Below, piece by piece: positions 20,610 through 30,294 of a DNA stretch of 64,000 nt (its first letter is position 1; the number at the start of each line of letters is the position of its first letter). The stretch covers positions 62,001 through 126,000 of the forward strand of contig DASUCV010000011.1 of the NCBI GenBank assembly GCA_036275915.1, read 5' to 3'. This DNA comes from Candidatus Polarisedimenticolaceae bacterium. Its GTDB lineage: Bacteria > Acidobacteriota > Polarisedimenticolia > Polarisedimenticolales > DASRJG01. Under the pieces are notes generated by a model. That model made no database searches and was not told where the DNA came from. It saw only the letters and a list, made by a program, of their open reading frames with translations. The translations under genes and the position numbers were made by a program.

Positions 20610-21488
20610 ATGGCGTGGTTCAAGAAGGAGAAGACCCCCAAGCTCAAAGCCGGTGAACGGAAGATCACGATCCCCGAGGGCTTGTGGGTCAAGTGCGACA
20701 ACTGCAAGGAGATCATCTACAAGAAGGAAGTCGCACGGAACGCCAACGTCTGCCCCAAGTGCAACTACCACTTCCGCATCAGCGCGCGTGAGCGGCTCGA
20801 AGGCCTCTTCGACGACGGGCGCTTCCGCGAATTCGACACCGAGATCGCTCCCGTCGACGCCCTCGGCTTCGTCGACTCGAAGCCGTACGCGGCGCGCCTC
20901 GAGTCCTATCAGAAAGAGACCGGGCTCAAGGACGCGCTGATCGCGTGCGAAGGGCTCATCGGCGGAATGCCGGTCATCGCCGCCGTCATGGAATACGGCT
21001 TCATGGGCGGCTCGATGGGGAGCGTCGTCGGCGAAAAGGTCACCCGCGCCGCCGAGCGCGCCTACTCGGTCCACTGTCCGCTCCTCGTCGTCTCATGCTC
21101 CGGCGGCGCGCGTATGCAGGAAGGCGCGCTCTCGCTCATGCAGATGGCGAAGATCTCCGCCGCGCTCGCTCGCCTCGACGAAAAGGGGATTCCCTACATC
21201 TCGATCCTGACCGATCCGACGACGGGAGGGGTCACCGCGTCGTTCGCCATGCTCGGCGACCTCATCATCGCCGAGCCGAAGGCGCTCATCGGCTTCGCCG
21301 GCCCGCGCGTCATCGAGCAGACGATCCGCCAGAAGCTCCCGGTCGGCTTCCAGCGCGCCGAATTCCTCCTCGAGCACGGTATGATCGACATCATCGTCGA
21401 GCGCGCGCAGATGCGCGACACGCTCATCCAGTGCCTTCAGTTCATGATCGGCGCGCGTAAACCTGTGTCGGTGACGTCGAGATTGTGA
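20610..21488 (+). CDS. accD: Acetyl-CoA carboxylase carboxyltransferase subunit beta
   Basis: Transfers carboxyl from biotin carrier protein to acetyl-CoA, the first step of fatty acid synthesis. It has 292 residues. The N-terminal zinc ribbon is visible ([20 protein letters not shown] then PKC). The crotonase-like core carries [37 protein letters not shown] and [14 protein letters not shown]. Its last three codons and stop (Ser-Arg-Leu-stop) lie inside a perfect inverted repeat that gives the convergent gene the same ending. accA is not in the window. Confidence 0.95.
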
Positions 21489-21584
21489 AGGGGACCAATT
21501 CTCAGAAGGGACAGCTTCCGAAACTCTGCACTTCGAGTTTCGGAAGCTGTCCCTTCTGAGAATTGGTCCCCTTCACAATCTCGA
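21477..21584. repeat. Perfect 50-bp inverted repeat between convergent accD and pduO
   Basis: Arms at 21477-21526 and 21535-21584 are exact reverse complements with an 8-base loop (TGCACTTC). Each arm contains the last codons and stop of the gene it meets, so both proteins end in Ser-Arg-Leu. The arms contain AGGGGACC and AGGGACAG blocks reminiscent of REP-type palindromes. It is far longer than an ordinary terminator and lacks a terminal T-run, though it would form a bidirectional hairpin in either transcript. Confidence 0.95.
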
Positions 21585-22136
21585 GTTCCAGAGGACGTCG
21601 GCGATGCCGCGGTGCTTGTTCTCGAAGCGCGCCATGACGAAGAGCGCATCCGACAACCGGTTCAAGTAGGGGACGACGAAAGCGCCGACCGCCTCCTCGC
21701 GCGCGAGCCCGACGGCCAGACGCTCGGCGCGCCGGCAGACGGTACGAGCGACGTGCAAGCGGGCCGCTCCCTCGGAGCCGCCGGGAAGGATGAAATTCTG
21801 GAGCGGGCCGAGCGTTTCGTTCATCCGGTCGATCGCCGCTTCGAGCTCCTGGACGTGACGCTCCTCTATCCGCGGCACCGGGCGCTTCGCCTTGTCCTCC
21901 TCGAAGGCGCAGAGATCGGACCCGAGGTGGAACAGCTCGTTCTGGATCCGCGTCAAGCCGGACATGAGCGACGGCTCGAGGCCGCCTGCGACCGCCTCGC
22001 CGATGATCGAGTTCAGCTCGTCGACGGTGCCGTAGACCTCGATCCGGAGCGCGTCCTTCGGCAGGCGCCGGCCGCCGCCGAGCGCCGTCGTCCCGTCGTC
22101 GCCGGTCTTCGTGTAGATCTTCGTGAGCTTCGGCAT
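21573..22136 (-). CDS. pduO: PduO-type cob(I)alamin adenosyltransferase
   Basis: Enzyme of 187 residues that converts cob(I)alamin plus ATP into coenzyme B12. N-terminal ATP-binding signature [21 protein letters not shown]; the central helical bundle carries [40 protein letters not shown] and [14 protein letters not shown], all typical of PduO. ATG 22136 starts directly at the conserved [12 protein letters not shown]. Located 19 bases after btuB, so under the same cobalamin riboswitch. Its 3' end lies within the palindrome. Confidence 0.95.
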
Positions 22137-22155
22137 CCTCGCTCCACGGGCGGCG

Positions 22156-24222
22156 TCACAGGCGCCAGCCGATGCCGGCAAGATAGCGCCGGCCGGGGGC
22201 AGGGGTCACGAAGACCTCGTTGACGAACGTCGAAAAATCCAAGGCGTAGATTCCGCGAGTCGCGTACGTCTCGTCGAGCAGGTTGAGCGCCGACGCGAAG
22301 ACCTGGACACGGCCGCGCTTCGTTCCCAAGGAACGTTCCCAGCTCAGCCGCACGTTCACGACCGTGTAGTCCGGCAGCCGCTGCTGGGCGTTCTCGGGAT
22401 CGTTGTCGAGAACCTGTGAGCCGACGTAGAGCGCGTCCGCGCGCAGGCCGAACCCGCGTGGCAGCGCCGCGTCGACCCCCGCGGCGAGCCGCCATTTCGG
22501 GACGAGGGGAACCTCGTTCCCGTCGTTCGGGCCGCTCGTGAACGACGAATCGGTGTACGTCGCATTCGCGAACGCCGAGACCCCGCGTCCGATCGTGCCG
22601 CGCCCTGATACCTCCACGCCGCGCCGAGCCGTCTCCCCGGCGTTCACGTTGCGTCCGAACGGATCCGTCGCCGTCGGCGTTGGGTCGAAGATGATCTCGT
22701 CTTTCGTCGTCGTCCAGAAGAGCGCGGCTTCGAGCGAGCCGATCCGCCCGCGGCTCCGCGTGCCCAGCTCGAAGGCTCGCGCATCCTCGGGCTTCAGATC
22801 CGGATTGCTGCCGAATCCCGGAAACGCGTAAAGCTGCTCCGCCGTCGGCGGGAGAAAGGCGTCGGCGTACGACGCATAGAGATCGACCGCGACCGACGGG
22901 TGGAAGGTCACGCCTGCGCGCGGCGAGATCTGGTCGAACGTCGTCTGTCCGCTCGCTGGCCCAGCGATCGTCTCGTCGTAGCTCACGCGGCTCGAGTCCC
23001 CGCGGACCCCGGCCATGACGTTCCATCGTGACGTGATCGTCCACGAGTCCTGCGCGAAGATGGCCGCGTTCCGCGTCTTGGCGGTGTTGCTGGACGAGGG
23101 GGCGTTCGGGTCGTACGTGCCGGGATCGGCCGGCGGGGTCGAGAAGCCGGTGTCGTCCGACGACCCATCGAGCCCTTCGAGCCCGAACGCCAGAAGGTGC
23201 GAGCCGTCGCCGCTCTTGAATTCACGGGAGGCCTGAGCCACGAGGCTCCACGTGTCGGCGTCCGCGTCCAGGAAGAACCCGCCGAACGTCGGCGCGGCCC
23301 GCCCCGTCGTGAGGGTCTTCGCCTTGTCGTTTCGGAAGCCGAGCGTCGTCGCGACCGAGAACCCCGCGCCCACGGGACCCTGAAACGTCATGGAGGCCTG
23401 ACGCTGATCGACGTTCGAGTTGTCGAGCAGATTGAAGGTGTTCTGCGTCGGGTCGGCGTGGAACTCGGCGAGGGTCAGCGCGCCGGGGTTGCCGTAATCG
23501 AGACTGGAGGAGGTCAGGAGCAAACCGAGCCTCCGTCCGCCCCCGAGATCGAAGCCGCCGTTCGCGTCGAAGCGCTTCTGATCGCCCCCCGAGTTGGGGC
23601 GGAAGCCGTCGGTCGTGTCGTAGGCGCCCGACACGAACAGGTCGAACTTCCCATAGTGGTCGCCGTAGCTTCCATCCACGCGCCACGTGTTCCACGTTCC
23701 ACCCGACGCCGCGATCGCGGCGCTCGGCGAGGTGCCGCGTCGTGTGATCACGCGGACGACTCCGGCCTCCGACCCGCCGCCTGCCAGCGCCGCCGACGGA
23801 CCGCGCGTGATCTCGACCCTCTCGATCGCGTTGAGCGGGATCTGCTCGAGCGCCGCGACGTTGTTCCGCGGGTCGTTGATCCGGGCACCGTCGACGAAGA
23901 CGGCGAGCCCCTCGTCTCCCGCGAACCCGCGGAGGTCGAGCGACTTCTGCACGTCGTTCCCGACCTGGTCGATCAAGACGACGCCGGCCTCCTGGGAGAT
24001 CAGGTCCTGGAGGTTCCGCGCCCCGCTCTTCTCGATCGCCTCGCGATCGATGACCGTGACGTGCGCCGGCACGTCACTCTTCGCGACGCCGGCGTCTTCC
24101 AGACGTGTGGCGGTGACGAGGACGTGCTCGTTGACGTCCTTCTCGTCGTCGGCAAAGGCGGGGATGAAGATCGAGCTGATGAGAAGAAGAGAGAAGAGGA
24201 GACCGGATTCGAGACGCCGCAT
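22156..24222 (-). CDS. btuB: TonB-dependent vitamin B12 receptor
   Basis: Outer-membrane receptor of 688 residues. Signal peptide (residues 1-25), a TonB-box-like [10 protein letters not shown], then the plug domain with [50 protein letters not shown] and [14 protein letters not shown]. Residues from about 155 to the C-terminus form alternating amphipathic strands of a 22-strand barrel. Cobalamin is inferred as substrate because a cobalamin riboswitch immediately precedes the gene, btuFCD lie upstream, and an adenosyltransferase follows. The start has a GGGAGG ribosome binding site. Confidence 0.92.
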
Positions 24223-24259
24223 GCGAACCTCCCGTTCGGCTGGCGCGATGGCGCATGGG

Positions 24260-24423
24260 ACGCTCGCCCGGTCTCCTGGCTCACGGATCGTCCGCCCCGG
24301 GCTCCTTCCCGAACGCCCAACCCCTCTCGGGATCTCTGACGTTCAGTGGATGCCGCCCGTGGCGTCCCCGTTCACAGTGGCGGGGGCCGCGCGGGATTCT
24401 CACCCGCTTCCCTCGACGAGCGT
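24260..24423 (-). ncRNA. Cobalamin riboswitch
   Basis: Minus-strand RNA with the B12-riboswitch core. The P1 stem is ACGCTCG paired with CGAGCGT at the two ends. GGGAAGCGGGTGAGAATCCCG, the conserved CCGCCACTGTGA, a GGGAAGG segment and the B12 box GTGAGCCAGGAGACC follow in canonical order. It ends 37 bases before btuB ATG and 16 bases after the btuD stop. No T-run terminator follows P1, so translational control of btuB-pduO is likely. Confidence 0.95.
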
Positions 24424-24439
24424 CTGTTGTGAAAGAACG

Positions 24440-25243
24440 TTACGAACCGTGGACGTTACCACGGGAGACCGGAATCACGAACGGCCGTCCCGACGACGGA
24501 TCGGTCGCGATCTCGACGTCGACCTCGTAAACCGCCCGGATCGGCTCGGGGCGGAGCACCTCGGCCGGCGCACCGTCGGCGACGACGGCGCCGTCGCGGA
24601 GCAGGACCAGCCGGTCGCAGTAGCGAGCCGCGAGGTTGATGTCGTGGCTGACGACCACGACGGTCAGGCCCTGTTCATCGCGAAGGCGAGACAGCAGGGT
24701 GTAAACGGCGAGGCGGTGCTTGAGGTCGAGGTACGCCGTCGGCTCATCGAGCAAGAGAAGGCGCGCTTGCTGCGTCAGCGCGCGGGCGAGAAGCACGCGC
24801 TGGCGCTCACCGCCCGACAGAGCGCGGAACGACCGCTCGGCGAGAACGGCGATCTCGCACCGCTCCATCGCGTCGCGCGCGATCGTGAGATCGGACGCGG
24901 ACTCGATACCGAGCAGGCCCAGGTGCGGGGCGCGCCCCATGCGCACGATCTCGTCCACCGAGAACTCGAAGACGGGGTGCGTCTCCTGAGGGACGACGGC
25001 GACGCGACGGGCGCGCTCGCGCGAGGGGAGGGCGGCGAGGTCGTCGCCGAAGAGGGCGATGCGACCATTCGAGGGGCGGAGGGCCGCGGACGCGAGGCGG
25101 ACGAGCGTCGTCTTGCCGGTGCCGTTGGGGCCGAGCACTCCCGTGATGCTCCCCGCCGCGACCGCGAGGTCGAGGCCTCGCAGGACCGGTGTCCGCCCAT
25201 AGCCGAAGTCGATGCGCTCGAACGCCAGCGCCGGCGCGCTCAT
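24440..25243 (-). CDS. btuD: Vitamin B12 ABC transporter ATP-binding protein
   Basis: ATPase of the B12 importer, 267 residues. Walker A is GPNGTGKTT, the Q-loop is in VVPQETHPVFEFSV, the ABC signature is LSGGERQR, Walker B is LLLLDEPTAYLDLKH and the switch histidine is in VVSHDINLA. The family could also serve iron-siderophore uptake, but position next to the cobalamin riboswitch and adenosyltransferase favours B12. Its start overlaps the btuC stop by 4 bases. The C-terminal ~25 residues extend beyond the core domain. Confidence 0.9.
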   Translation of the reverse strand: MSAPALAFERIDFGYGRTPVLRGLDLAVAAGSITGVLGPNGTGKTTLVRLASAALRPSNGRIALFGDDLAALPSRERARRVAVVPQETHPVFEFSVDEIVRMGRAPHLGLLGIESASDLTIARDAMERCEIAVLAERSFRALSGGERQRVLLARALTQQARLLLLDEPTAYLDLKHRLAVYTLLSRLRDEQGLTVVVVSHDINLAARYCDRLVLLRDGAVVADGAPAEVLRPEPIRAVYEVDVEIATDPSSGRPFVIPVSRGNVHGS

Positions 25244-26232
25244 GCTTCCCTCAAGCGCCGCATCAAGAGAACGAGGAAGAACGGTCCGCCGACGATCGCG
25301 GTGACGACGCCGACCGGCAGCTCCGTGGGAGCGAGCAGCGTACGGGCCACGGCGTCGGCCAGCATGAGGATCGCGGCGCCGCCGACCGCCGAGACCGGAA
25401 TCAGGACGCGGTGGTCGGCGCCGAAGATCCGGCGCATCGCGTGGGGAACGATGAGGCCGACGAAACCGATGATCCCGGTGAAGGCGACCGCAGCGGCGGT
25501 GATCAGAGATGCCGCGATCACGACCGTCCAGGTCGCCCGCTCGACCCCGACGCCGAGCTGGCTGGCCTCTTCGTCACCGAGCGCGAGCAGGTTCAACGTG
25601 TGGGCATGGGCGCCGAGGGCCGCGACGCCGATCGTGCAGAGCGCCGCGACGGTGACGAGCGACGACCAGGGCGGCGACACCATCGCCCCCATCAGGTAGG
25701 AGAGCGTTCCCTGGAACCGCGCCGGGTCGCCGGCGCTCACGAAGAACTGGATGATCGCGGAGTCGAAGGCGTTGAGGACGACCCCGGTCAGGAGAAGGGC
25801 GGTCGTCTCGGTCCTGCCGCGAAAACGCGCGAGGCCGAAGAGGATGATCAGGGTCGTCAGCGCGCCGACAAAGGCTGCGACGGGACGGCCCGCGGAGAAC
25901 GTGAGGGCCGCTGGCGGCGCCGCCGCGATGAAGATGACGGCGCCGAGAGCCGCGCCTCCCGAGACGCCGAGGATGTAGGGATCGGCCAGCGGGTTCCGCA
26001 GGACCGCTTGATAAGCGCACCCGGCGACCGAGAGCGCCGCACCAACACACGCGGCGAGGAGCACTCTCGCCAGTCGCACGTCGAAGAGGATCAGGCGGCT
26101 CGAGGGGTCACCGCTCAAGAGATCGGAGAGTCCAACGCGGCTCGGCCCGACGCTGACCGCGAGGACGAGCGCCGCCGCGGCCACCGCGGTGACGACCGCC
26201 AGGCCGGCAAGGCGCGACCGCGAACCGCTCAC
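25240..26232 (-). CDS. btuC: Vitamin B12 ABC transporter permease
   Basis: FecCD/BtuC-type inner-membrane permease of 330 residues with about ten hydrophobic helices. Family motifs include LFDVRLARVLLAACVGAALS, the conserved NPLADPYILGVSGGAALGA and GFVGLIVPHAMRRIFGADHR, the last containing the coupling region for the ATPase. Both ends overlap neighbours by 4 bases (btuF and btuD), so the three are translationally coupled. Confidence 0.92.
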   Translation of the reverse strand: MSGSRSRLAGLAVVTAVAAAALVLAVSVGPSRVGLSDLLSGDPSSRLILFDVRLARVLLAACVGAALSVAGCAYQAVLRNPLADPYILGVSGGAALGAVIFIAAAPPAALTFSAGRPVAAFVGALTTLIILFGLARFRGRTETTALLLTGVVLNAFDSAIIQFFVSAGDPARFQGTLSYLMGAMVSPPWSSLVTVAALCTIGVAALGAHAHTLNLLALGDEEASQLGVGVERATWTVVIAASLITAAAVAFTGIIGFVGLIVPHAMRRIFGADHRVLIPVSAVGGAAILMLADAVARTLLAPTELPVGVVTAIVGGPFFLVLLMRRLREA

Positions 26233-27068
26233 GGTGTGCCGCTGGGGTGGAGGATCGCGGCGAGCTGCTCGGCGGCATCGGCAACGCGCGGACCGGGCCG
26301 GAGCGCGACGCCGTTGTCGAGGAGGACGACGCGCTTCGCCGCCACCGCCGGGATCTGCGGCCAGCGCGCCCAGAACGCCTCCTCCGGGCTCTCCTTCCCC
26401 GACGGCGGTACGTCCATCCGCGCTTGGAGGATCACCTGCGGCTTCGCCGCGACGACCGCTTCCAGCCCGAGGCGCGGGTAGCGAGGCTCGGTGACGACGT
26501 TCTTCCCGCCGGCGATCACGACGAGCTCCGAGGGAAGAGTGTCGCGCCCGGCCGCATAGATCGGCTCGGTTTGTACACAGAAGAGCGTCGGTACCGCCGG
26601 AAGGCCCGAGACCTTACGTCGCACCGCGTTCAGACGCTCCCGGATGGAGGCGACGAGGGAGCGACCCTTCTCGGCGTTTCCCACCAAGCGGGCGACCGCC
26701 TCGATGGCGCTCAGCGATTCCTCGAGCGTTTCGGCCTGGACGACTTCGACGCGCAAACCGGCACGCTGCATGGCGAGCGCTGCATCGCGGTTCCCCGGAC
26801 CCGGGCTGACGACGACGAGGTCGGGCTTGAGCGCGAGCACCGCCTCGACCGACGGGTTCACGTAGCCGCCGACCTTCGCGCGGGTCTTCGCTTCGGGCGG
26901 GTAATCGCAGAAGTCGGTTACCCCGACGACGCGATCGCCGGCGCCGACGGCAAAGAGGATCTCGGTGAGTGCCGGTGTCAGCGAGACGATCCGTGCGGGA
27001 GGCGCCGGTGCGGCCGGCGGAGGTGTTGCGGCCAGCGCGGCGATCAGGGTGAGGGTGATCAAAAACAC
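26229..27068 (-). CDS. btuF: Periplasmic B12-binding protein
   Basis: Substrate-binding protein of about 279 residues. GTG 27068 opens into a signal peptide (FLITLTLIAALAATPPP). The mature part has the cobalamin/siderophore-binding fold: RIVSLTPALTEILFAVGAGD, VVGVTDFCDYPPEAKTRAKVGGY and ALKPDLVVVS, typical of BtuF-like proteins. A long alpha-helix linking the lobes is visible near 120-150. It delivers cobalamin to BtuCD. The receiver-TonB gene ends 33 bases upstream in the same direction. Confidence 0.88.
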   Translation of the reverse strand: MFLITLTLIAALAATPPPAAPAPPARIVSLTPALTEILFAVGAGDRVVGVTDFCDYPPEAKTRAKVGGYVNPSVEAVLALKPDLVVVSPGPGNRDAALAMQRAGLRVEVVQAETLEESLSAIEAVARLVGNAEKGRSLVASIRERLNAVRRKVSGLPAVPTLFCVQTEPIYAAGRDTLPSELVVIAGGKNVVTEPRYPRLGLEAVVAAKPQVILQARMDVPPSGKESPEEAFWARWPQIPAVAAKRVVLLDNGVALRPGPRVADAAEQLAAILHPSGTP

Positions 27069-27101: not shown

Positions 27102-28976
27102 TCACATCTTGAACGTGACCTGCTCGATCTTCCAGACCTTGACCGGGACGCCGGCCTTCGTCGCCGGCCGGTACGTCCAGGAGCGCGCCGCGCGAACAGC
27201 CGCTTCGTTGAGATCGGCTCCCGGAACACCCTGGACGAGGGTCACGTCGTCGACCGTTCCTTGCTCGTTCACGAGCACCTTCATGACGACCGTGCCCTGG
27301 ATGCGAAGCTGCCGCGCCTGCATCGAGTAGACCGGGAGCTTGCGGGAAAGCGATACGGGCGACGTCTCCGCCTCGGCGCTGTCGACCGTCGTTCCGGGGA
27401 CGACACTCGGAGCCGCAGCTGCGGCCGCTGGCAGGTCGACCGGCTCGACGCTCGGGACGCCTTCGTCCGCGCCCGCCGGCGCCGCGATCGGAACCGGCTC
27501 GGCGGCCTTCTGCTGGCTCGACGGCGAGGGCTTTGTGGCGGGGAATTGGTGCGGCGGAGTCGCCTTCGGGAGCTCCGCCTGCTCCGTCTTGGCCGCGGGC
27601 TTCGTCGCCGAGGGTGTCGAGGCGGTCGCCAGCGGTGCCGGGCGCTGGGGGAGCGGCTGGATCGCATTCAGGACGACCGATGGCGGTTGAGGTGCCGGCG
27701 TGGGTGCCTGCGCTGCCGGCTCCGGCGCACGGTGAGGCGCGGGAACGGTCTCACTCGTCGACGACTCGGCGCTCGACACGCTCGGCTTCATGAAGACGAA
27801 ATAGCCCGCGGCGGCGAGCCCCGCGAGGACCAGCAGCGCCCAGATCCACACGGGAACGCCGCGGCGCGCCGGCTTCCCGGCAAGCTCGGCTTCCGCGAGG
27901 GTGCCTTGCGGCAAGGTCATCGTGGCCACGGGCGGCAAGGGAGCCTGCGGGCGAGCGGTCTCGGCGATCGGGGTCACGCGGGCAGGCGCGGGAGGCGGCT
28001 GCGGAGCCGGGGACGCCTGCGCCTTGCCCTTCTTCTTGCGGCGCGATCGCCCGGCCTCGAAGTTGACGAGCTGACCCGGCGTCTCGGCGGCGGGTGCCGT
28101 CTCGGGAGGCGCGGGCGCCGCGACCTCTTCTTGAACGGGAAGCGACTCCAGCAGCGACGGAGCCGCCTCCTGGTCGGACGGGAAGGTCTGCGGCATGGGA
28201 TCGAAGACCGGCGCCGCCTCGAGTGCCAGCGAGCCGGACATCGACCCCAGCTCGGCGGTGAGCTCCTTCTGCATCTGCGCGAACGGATCGTCGATCTCGT
28301 GTGCCATCGGCTCGACAACGGGCATCTCGGCGATCGGCGCCGGCGCGACCTCGATCGGCGGAGGGATCTCGGCCGGTGGCGACGGCACAAGCTCGTTGCC
28401 GGGAAGAATCGCGTCGAGGCGAGCCATGATCTCTTCTTCGGTGAAGTCCTTGATGACCGAAGGCGTCGTCGACGATTTCATCGGCACGGGCCGCGCGGGC
28501 GCCGGCTCGACCGTGATCGCCTTCGCCGTAGCGGCAGGCTCGCTCGCGGTGACGCCGGCCGCTTCGCGACTCTCACCGCCGCCGCTCCCGGCGCTCGCCG
28601 ATCCCGAGAAGAACTTGCCGACGACCGCGAGGAGCTGCTCCGGAGCGATCGGTTTCTCGATGTACTCGTCGCAGCCGTAGATGTGCAGCGCCTGCGTCCG
28701 GTACTTCCGTCCCTTGTAGACCCCCGTCGTGATGAGGACCGGGGTGCGCTTCCCGTGAGGGGTTCGTTTCAGCTCCTGGCACACCTCGAAGCCGTGCCGC
28801 TTCGGGATCATCGCCTCGACCAGGACCATGTCAGGGCTGAGGCGATGGAACGCCTCGATGCCGCTCACGCCATCGGTGGCGACCTCGACGCCGTACCCCG
28901 CATCGGTCAGCGGTTGGCGGAACCGCTCGATGCTTCGCGGTTCGTAGTCGATCAAGAGAATCGTGCGGTGCGCCAT
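27102..28976 (-). CDS. Receiver domain-TM-TonB fusion protein
   Basis: 624-residue protein joining a response-regulator receiver to a TonB energy transducer. Residues 1-125 are receiver-like (ILLIDYEPRS, ITTGVYKGRKYRTQALHIYG, YIEKPI). The phosphoacceptor aspartate is replaced by E54 in MVLVEAMIP, and the acidic pocket has Tyr11 in place of one Asp; T84 and K108 are kept. A Pro/Ala-rich linker leads to one membrane helix (about 374-396, VWIWALLVLAGLAAAGYFVF), a second Pro-rich periplasmic stretch, and a TonB C-terminal domain (about 545-624, RIQGTVVMKVLVNEQGTVDD...SWTYRPA). The receiver is cytosolic and TonB periplasmic. ATG 28976 is set by the receiver. It probably energises BtuB. Confidence 0.88.
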   Translation of the reverse strand: MAHRTILLIDYEPRSIERFRQPLTDAGYGVEVATDGVSGIEAFHRLSPDMVLVEAMIPKRHGFEVCQELKRTPHGKRTPVLITTGVYKGRKYRTQALHIYGCDEYIEKPIAPEQLLAVVGKFFSGSASAGSGGGESREAAGVTASEPAATAKAITVEPAPARPVPMKSSTTPSVIKDFTEEEIMARLDAILPGNELVPSPPAEIPPPIEVAPAPIAEMPVVEPMAHEIDDPFAQMQKELTAELGSMSGSLALEAAPVFDPMPQTFPSDQEAAPSLLESLPVQEEVAAPAPPETAPAAETPGQLVNFEAGRSRRKKKGKAQASPAPQPPPAPARVTPIAETARPQAPLPPVATMTLPQGTLAEAELAGKPARRGVPVWIWALLVLAGLAAAGYFVFMKPSVSSAESSTSETVPAPHRAPEPAAQAPTPAPQPPSVVLNAIQPLPQRPAPLATASTPSATKPAAKTEQAELPKATPPHQFPATKPSPSSQQKAAEPVPIAAPAGADEGVPSVEPVDLPAAAAAAPSVVPGTTVDSAEAETSPVSLSRKLPVYSMQARQLRIQGTVVMKVLVNEQGTVDDVTLVQGVPGADLNEAAVRAARSWTYRPATKAGVPVKVWKIEQVTFKM

Positions 28977-29085
28977 GCCCACCCGCCCTGAAAGTTCTTC
29001 GCTCGGCCCCGTGGACACCCCCTGGTGCCCGCGGAAAACATAGGTGCCGGTGGAGGCGGATTCAAGTCGCAGTAAAGTCACTCCC

Positions 29086-30294
29086 GTGAGCGTTTCTACG
29101 TGGGGAAATGGGGTCCGCGCGCTCGCCGCTCGCAGCGGCGGTGGTTCCGTCTTCTTCGAGCAGCGCACCGACGTCGTTCTGACCGCCGGACGGGACCGTC
29201 CACGCGCCGTCTCGATCATGCCGTCCCGCGGAGCGGCACTCGGCGATGCGCTGAGCTCGATCCACGTCACGGATCCTCTGCTCGACGCTTTCAGCGAGCC
29301 GATCCGGGCAGAAGCCGCCGCTGTCGAGGAAGCGCAGCGGCAAGAAGGCCTCTTCGAAGCCGCGATCGCCGGACACGAGGACCTCGACTGGACGCTGAGG
29401 GTTGTTGCGTTCCACCAAAACATTTGGGTGAGCGACCCCGACGGCAATTTGTCCTCCGACACGCGTCGGGGTTGTCGCGCCGAGCTGAAGCTCGGACTCG
29501 GATCGCGCTCCCACACGGTGGATTGGGTCGCCTCACCGGAGGGAAAGCTTGCATCCGCGATCGAGCGTCTGATCGCCGGACCGAGGCGACGGCTTTCCCC
29601 CGGTACCACCTGCGCCGTCTTCGATGCGGGGATCGCCGGACTCATCGCCCATGAATTGGTTGGCCATGCTCTCGAAGGGGATGTACTCCAGCGGCGTCGG
29701 ACGTGGATCCAAGGCGGTCTACCCAAAACCTGCCGCCCGTTCCGGGTCGAGGACGATCCCCGGCGCGGGCGCGCCGCATGGAAGACCGACGACGAGGGCG
29801 TCTCCAGCCGGTCGGTCCTGCTGACCGACGACGATCGTGTCGCCGGGTACCTGCTCGACCGGACGTCCGCAGCGGCCCGGTCGGCGGCGTCGACCGGTCA
29901 TGGGCGCCGGTCGAGCTTCCGCGATCCGGTGCGCCCGAGGATGGGTTGCACGTTCGTCCATGCCGGCGACGACGACCCGGCGGCGATCCTCTCCGAGACA
30001 TCCGGCGGCGTGTTCGTTCGACGCATGATCGCGGGCCACACCGATGCGGTCCGAGGCGTGGCCTCGTTCATCGTCACCGACGCCGACCTCATCGAAGCGG
30101 GGCGATGCACGACCCCGCTCGAACCGTTCGTGATGGAAGTGCGCGGGCGCGACGTGTGGTCGTCGCTTGATCGAATCGGGACCGATCTCGTCTTCGATGC
30201 ATGCGTGGGATCGTGCGTACGCGATGGCCAACCCCTGGCCGTAAGCGTCGGCGCGCCGACAATTCGATTAGGGGTGATCACGGTCAATTGTTAG
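29086..30294 (+). CDS. tldD: TldD-like metalloprotease subunit, compact form
   Basis: Zinc protease subunit of about 402 residues. The HExxxH site is H189-E190-H194 (HELVGHALEGD). The C-terminal ACVGSCVRDGQPLAVSVGAP matches the TldD segment that supplies the cysteine zinc ligand. STGHGRRSSFRDPVRPRM corresponds to the conserved glycine/arginine loop. TldD/TldE heterodimers cut unstructured peptides and mature some RiPPs and microcin B17. This copy is shorter than the ~480-residue E. coli subunit. Start: GTG 29086 is preferred, with GTG 29044 as an in-frame alternative. Its partner follows after 34 bases. Confidence 0.82.
   Translation: MSVSTWGNGVRALAARSGGGSVFFEQRTDVVLTAGRDRPRAVSIMPSRGAALGDALSSIHVTDPLLDAFSEPIRAEAAAVEEAQRQEGLFEAAIAGHEDLDWTLRVVAFHQNIWVSDPDGNLSSDTRRGCRAELKLGLGSRSHTVDWVASPEGKLASAIERLIAGPRRRLSPGTTCAVFDAGIAGLIAHELVGHALEGDVLQRRRTWIQGGLPKTCRPFRVEDDPRRGRAAWKTDDEGVSSRSVLLTDDDRVAGYLLDRTSAAARSAASTGHGRRSSFRDPVRPRMGCTFVHAGDDDPAAILSETSGGVFVRRMIAGHTDAVRGVASFIVTDADLIEAGRCTTPLEPFVMEVRGRDVWSSLDRIGTDLVFDACVGSCVRDGQPLAVSVGAPTIRLGVITVNC

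Follow-up and report, generated by a model that had tools for sequence, protein, structure and literature searches.

A gene in the stretch of DNA analysed here (64,000 nucleotides, hereafter the window) was found to encode a protein in which a receiver domain devoid of its phosphorylation site is joined, through a single transmembrane (TM) segment, to a TonB C-terminal domain (TonB_C), and this fusion is kept in relatives. The gene occupies positions 27102..28976 of the minus strand and codes for 624 residues; its start at 28976 is supported by Met1, which is identical in all rows of a 15-row alignment of homologues (A1). The receiver corresponds to residues 1-122 (28611..28976, minus strand, as for the remaining parts of the protein), with a Pfam Response_reg match (PF00072) at residues 6-119 (E 1.3e-17, 64.4 bits, above the gathering score). 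TonB_C covers residues 548-623 (27108..27335; PF03544, E 5e-18, above the gathering score; TIGR01352 tonB_Cterm also over cut-off), and its sequence matches the TonB structures 1xx3 and 1u07. Pfam identified these two domains only, and no FHA domain, in the protein. A hydropathy scan placed the single TM, VWIWALLVLAGLAAAGYFVFM, at about residues 376-396 (27789..27851); it has no His and is followed by a Pro/Ala-rich stretch leading to TonB_C. TonB proteins are thought to have almost no cytosolic part. Here about 375 residues precede the TM, so that the short cytosolic N-terminus of TonB is not matched. This pre-TM stretch is long, of low complexity and Ala/Pro/Glu-rich, with a single conserved motif, DFTEEEIMARLDAILPG (residues 177-193; 28398..28448), which is common to three relatives (L069, L071 and L075) and occurs in a related form in L072 and in the standalone receiver L083.

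Reading of the translated receiver (D10, Y11, E54, T84, Y105 and K108) revealed that Asp10, Thr84, Tyr105 and Lys108 are retained, whereas the second acidic residue is replaced by Tyr11 and the phosphoacceptor by Glu54, in agreement with the original prediction for positions 11, 54, 84 and 108. An AF2 model of the 122-residue domain, built from A1 and used for fold and confidence only, gave a mean pLDDT of 96.5, and its best PDB matches in Foldseek were ordinary receivers. This confidence and these matches, set against the residues lost, indicate that the receiver fold is intact and the phosphorylation site is not. On sequence criteria, namely a profile match combined with the loss of active-site residues (Y11 and E54), the domain is a pseudo-receiver.

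The genes that follow on the same strand encode a btuF-like periplasmic binding protein (26229..27068; PF01497, Peripla_BP_2; NCBIfam BtuF, 107.8 bits, below cut-off), a btuC-like permease (25240..26232; Pfam FecCD; best NCBIfam model BtuC, below cut-off) and a btuD-like ATPase (24440..25243; Pfam ABC_tran; best NCBIfam model corrinoid ABC transporter ATPase, below cut-off), which confirms the proposed arrangement of receiver, TM and TonB_C in one protein encoded before btuFCD. They are followed, also on the minus strand, by a cobalamin riboswitch (24248..24436; RF00174, 88.7 bits, E 4e-21) located between btuD and the gene downstream of it, which codes for a BtuB-like TonB-dependent receptor (22156..24222; Pfam Plug and barrel), and by a PduO-type cob(I)yrinic acid a,c-diamide adenosyltransferase gene (21573..22181; TIGR00636, 200 bits, over cut-off). 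Since the NCBIfam matches to BtuF, BtuC and BtuD lie below their cut-offs, the assignment to B12 rests on the riboswitch, PduO and synteny together. The translated receptor carries near its N-terminus the sequence EHVLVTATR, which we take to be TonB-box-like by comparison with E. coli BtuB. Two genes on the plus strand complete the neighbourhood: accD (20610..21488; TIGR00515 over cut-off here and in L138 and L144), convergent in the window and the commonest neighbour of the family across the phylum, and a divergent TldD/PmbA-like gene (29044..30294; PF19289), which by synteny marks the same spot in the class. A long, near-perfect inverted repeat (21487-21577, arms of about 40 bp) separates accD from the convergent PduO gene; Rfam gives only sub-threshold miRNA matches for it, and it may serve as a terminator or belong to the REP/MITE-like elements.

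To place the fusion in the class, 41 genomes were searched and the loci were read, giving 21 relatives, in which the names BtuF, BtuC and BtuD are assigned by similarity to the window proteins. Divergent TldD/PmbA-like genes flank the syntenic place on one side, and btuFCD, btuB, PduO and accD flank it on the other. A TM-TonB_C fusion lies there directly before btuF in the window genome, in G029, G031, G034 and G028 and apparently in G030, where it is split over two contigs. In five other genomes (G032, G033, G035, G036 and G037) a standalone receiver about 165 to 235 residues long occupies the place, adjoining PduO and accD, without btuFCD. Four of the five carry a TonB-fused copy elsewhere among unrelated genes, as well as a single btuC elsewhere, and no such copy was found in G032; the genes around off-locus fusions encode peptidase M64, an alpha/beta hydrolase, a methyltransferase and a PBP. 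G039 and G040 have a standalone receiver 30 bp before accD, and a BtuC search of these two genomes returned no match. In G038, the copy before btuF (L087, contig C30) stops soon after the TM and has no TonB_C, through either loss or a MAG error, and a TonB-fused copy (L079) is found elsewhere in that genome.

The fusion is present in many Acidobacteriota of several families, among them G034, whose genome is a single contig. This recurrence of frame and fusion excludes that two genes had been joined through an assembly or frame error, an explanation for which no supporting point was found and whose probability we consider negligible. With regard to the active site, Glu54 is present in all syntenic members of the class, in support of the proposed pseudo-receiver, and Thr, Lys and the Tyr of Y-T coupling are retained in the window clade; in off-locus copies position 54 is Glu, Gln or Ala, and Asp in none.

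A search of the phylum with A1 gave matches at 1e-20 or better in 112 of 297 genomes; 80 further loci were taken, and 103 aligned receivers were classified. The sampling covered Acidobacteriota; beyond the phylum, one contig scan returned close relatives only, the named matches being Acidobacteria MAGs, among them Candidatus Polarisedimenticola. The architectures comprised 33 receiver-only frames, 25 of receiver-TM-TonB_C and 29 of receiver-kinase, most of the latter with TM-TonB_C, and some receiver-only and receiver-kinase frames are cut by contig ends. Pfam analysis of eight chosen chains detected receiver, Pkinase and TonB_C in seven and receiver and TonB_C in the eighth. The family is apparently undescribed so far: a literature search for Acidobacteria with an architecture of TonB, kinase and receiver found none, and 'pseudo-receiver' appeared together with 'TonB' only in work that, by its title, deals with the kinase GacS.

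Classification of the 103 receivers revealed that the second acidic position is not Asp in 87 of them (77 Tyr, 8 Phe, 1 Asn and 1 His). The original prediction had named a prevalence of Asp54 among homologues as the observation that would speak against it; on the contrary, 79 of these 87 receivers are also without the phosphoacceptor Asp, site 54 being Glu in 50, Ser in 13, Arg in 11, Asp in 8, Ala in 3 and Gln in 2. In the remaining 16 receivers the second acidic position is Asp; all of them have Asp54, and none is fused to TonB_C. Parsimony on the receiver tree, which is based on 122 columns and has many open forks, required one change at the second acidic position and at least 10 at site 54. 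An AU test did not reject the Tyr/Phe rows as a single clade against all 18 others (p 0.305, with few columns and many open forks). Tyr11, and not Glu54, is the founding change of the family, and Tyr or Phe at the second acidic position is its hallmark. Glu54 was considered as a general hallmark and rejected, as site 54 varies and the second acidic residue is constant. The expectation that Glu would be found on aligning this site is borne out for the syntenic members of the class and does not extend to the phylum, where Ser, Arg, Ala and Gln also occur; for the same reason, a Glu phosphomimic is not the general mechanism.

Two lineages depart from the common pattern in other ways. Seven of the eight Asp54 cases belong to the f24 lineage (L180-L182 and L185-L188), with Asn at the first acidic position, Tyr at the second and Glu in place of Lys108. 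In a clade with Arg54 (L152-L158, L160, L162-L165 and L189), position 108 is Asp and position 84 is Cys, a charge-reversed counterpart of Glu54/Lys108. This reversal may weakly point to a retained contact between positions 54 and 108, weakly because it is confined to a single clade.

As to the rest of the domain, Gly36, Gly62 and Ala96 are invariant, and Phe63, Tyr87, Tyr92 and Glu107 are conserved at 91-96%; the strongly conserved surface of the predicted receiver is non-catalytic. The receiver could still be switched by another modification, such as Ser/Thr phosphorylation, or by a small ligand. A Ser/Thr kinase does share the chain with the receiver in 29 relatives; however, the window protein is without a kinase and site 54 is neither Ser nor Thr in the window clade, and we regard this explanation as very unlikely.

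The TM segment bears on whether the protein works as an ordinary TonB. A Ser-x3-His motif in the TM (SHLS) is used by TonB to engage ExbB and by TolA to engage TolQ; in E. coli TonB, ExbB is contacted by Ser16 and His20, a pair that recurs in TolA (PMC12215075). Among the 54 family TM segments checked, Ser-x3-His was present in none, nor was any His. On the other hand, four canonical TonBs of the window genome (L001, L003, L007 and L008) have His in their N-terminal TM. As the family TMs are without the His that TonBs of the same genome possess, a defining feature of an energised TonB is missing. These data are relevant to the idea of a dedicated TonB for BtuB, energised by ExbBD, in which a regulator added on the cytosolic side tunes B12 uptake, the tuning being what the original prediction had put forward. 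Such a role would fit the position of the gene, which immediately precedes btuF in a cluster of btuFCD, btuB and PduO that contains a cobalamin riboswitch, as well as the good match of TonB_C to TonB, the TonB-box-like N-terminus of the receptor and the existence of exbD genes in the genome. However, these exbD genes are on contigs other than that of the fusion gene, canonical TonBs with a His-containing TM are available for the receptors, and fusions are also found away from btu genes. Even without a His, the TM might interact with ExbB differently, but the absence of Ser-x3-His makes an energised TonB with an added regulator doubtful, and we consider it unlikely.

The neighbour genes across the relatives indicate two recurrent associations. 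In 11 family-level groups, no more than 1.1 kb separates accD from a family member; the two are mostly on the same strand and often less than 100 bp apart, and this proximity holds for standalone, kinase and TonB forms. Standalone receivers are located directly upstream of accD in f49, f55, f59 and f12. At five loci (L144, L145, L135, L197 and L203), proteins with receiver, Ser/Thr kinase, TM and TonB_C are encoded directly upstream of accD, and in several loci of this architecture accD is followed by a gene with a Mur-ligase domain, probably folC. The proximity in all three forms, together with the standalone receivers upstream of accD, would be accounted for if acetyl-CoA carboxylase were the main partner of the receiver, the ancestral gene having stood with accD and coupling fatty-acid or envelope synthesis to the state of the envelope, with btu a secondary association. 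Neighbourhood alone, however, is no proof of interaction; moreover, accD is convergent and 5-7 kb from the family gene in f1/f2, and the TonB forms of f49 are not at accD. We hold this explanation to be improbable.

The second association is with btuF, which is found directly downstream of a family member, within 600 bp, in 7 family-level groups from at least two separate clades (the window class and f14/f39). These members are usually also near btuCD-btuB and a cobalamin riboswitch. Riboswitches were detected in the window and at L069, L071, L074, L078, L087 and L209-L213, and five loci of f14/f39 show the order fusion with kinase, riboswitch, btuF, btuC, btuD and btuB. The riboswitch lies between the fusion gene and btuF in f14/f39 and f10, and after btuD in the f1/f2 loci; being downstream in all of them, it does not control the fusion gene itself. 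An exclusive link to B12 was rejected, since accD is the more frequent neighbour of the family and some of the fusions are surrounded by unrelated genes. The proposed connection with B12 is therefore retained in part: btuF linkage in 7 groups and at least two clades, with a riboswitch nearby, speaks for it, and the wider association with accD and the fusions far from btu in several relatives speak against it as a general rule.

Altogether, the explanation that we favour, with slightly less than even confidence, is that of a trans-envelope adaptor of the GltG type, with a cytosolic docking domain that is independent of phosphorylation and that has been recruited here to B12 uptake. This reading is based on the conservation of the fusion, the single loss of the second acidic residue, the conserved non-catalytic surface and the TM without His, as well as on the btuF linkage in 7 groups and the precedents of GltG and SjdR. 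From the fusion, the family, the loss of the phosphorylation site and the linkage to accD and btu, we infer the partners and the direction of signalling as follows. The receiver stays in the cytosol, and its sequence shows that the normal phosphotransfer cycle is blocked, the phosphoacceptor Asp being missing and the second metal-binding Asp being replaced by Tyr. Its conserved surface (HGFEVC; VYKGRKYR..A) and the linker motif DFTEEEIMARLDAILPG would bind a constant partner, and the single TM and the periplasmic Pro/Ala-rich arm would carry a TonB_C able to engage a partner in the outer membrane. Judging from synteny, the likeliest one here is the TonB box of the BtuB-like receptor, whose gene lies four genes further along. 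By such engagement, the adaptor would tether or position the B12 receptor relative to the BtuCD side of the inner membrane, rather than act as a TonB powered by ExbBD, by analogy with GltG and GltJ, which link the cytosol with the outer membrane during gliding. Several findings weigh against the adaptor: the gene is outside riboswitch control, fusions occur far from btu, and a BtuC search of G049, which carries the fusion, returned no match.

On a wider scale, we tentatively regard as possible, though well short of an even chance, an Acidobacteriota-wide class of trans-envelope proteins that arose from one Asp-to-Tyr change, in which a phosphate-blind domain, often together with a Ser/Thr kinase, communicates with the outer membrane by way of TonB_C, linking fatty-acid synthesis (accD) and B12 uptake to the envelope. 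Because the pseudo-receiver end and the TonB end span the envelope and the neighbours are accD or btu, the family may constitute a route from the cell interior to the outer membrane without phosphate signalling. It would thereby be a candidate connection from inside the cell to the outer membrane, in a phylum for which genetic models are scarce, and the natural variants at site 54 (E, S, R, A and Q), along with the standalone, TonB-fused and kinase-fused forms, provide a comparative series on the function of phosphate-blind receivers.

With the TonB of the TonB-ExbB-ExbD system, the window protein shares TonB_C, a Pro/Ala-rich periplasmic arm, one TM and a gene near that of a TonB-dependent receptor; it differs in its approximately 375 cytosolic residues including a receiver, in a TM without Ser-x3-His and in that exbBD is not adjacent. 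The family also resembles pseudo-receivers or aspartate-less receivers such as FrzS, ChxR and RitR, whose receiver fold is not accompanied by a usable phosphorylation site, but the family has a TM-TonB_C module as its output. In pseudo-receivers the phosphoacceptor is most often replaced by Glu, and loss at the second Asp is frequent (PMC4395418, PMC12632262); the main text of these two papers has no occurrence of TonB, and the working mode of pseudo-receivers is considered an open question (PMC12632262). In the TonB-like protein SjdR of Anabaena, the TM is likewise preceded by a cytosolic N-terminal extension. SjdR differs from the window protein in that its cytosolic residues number about 65 and its TonB C-terminus is incomplete, and a function other than TonB-dependent transport has been suggested for it by the authors of that study (PMC8262864). 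A close parallel is provided by GltG (PglI) and GltJ (AgmX) of the Agl-Glt gliding machinery of Myxococcus xanthus, which are also bitopic, with a cytosolic signalling domain, one TM, a periplasmic arm and TonB_C, GltG being FHA-TM-TonB_C (PMC3169522, PMC5349195). No gliding (Glt) genes were seen among the neighbourhoods examined. In comparison with GltG, the window protein carries a cytosolic pseudo-receiver instead of FHA, and the neighbours of its family are accD or btu.
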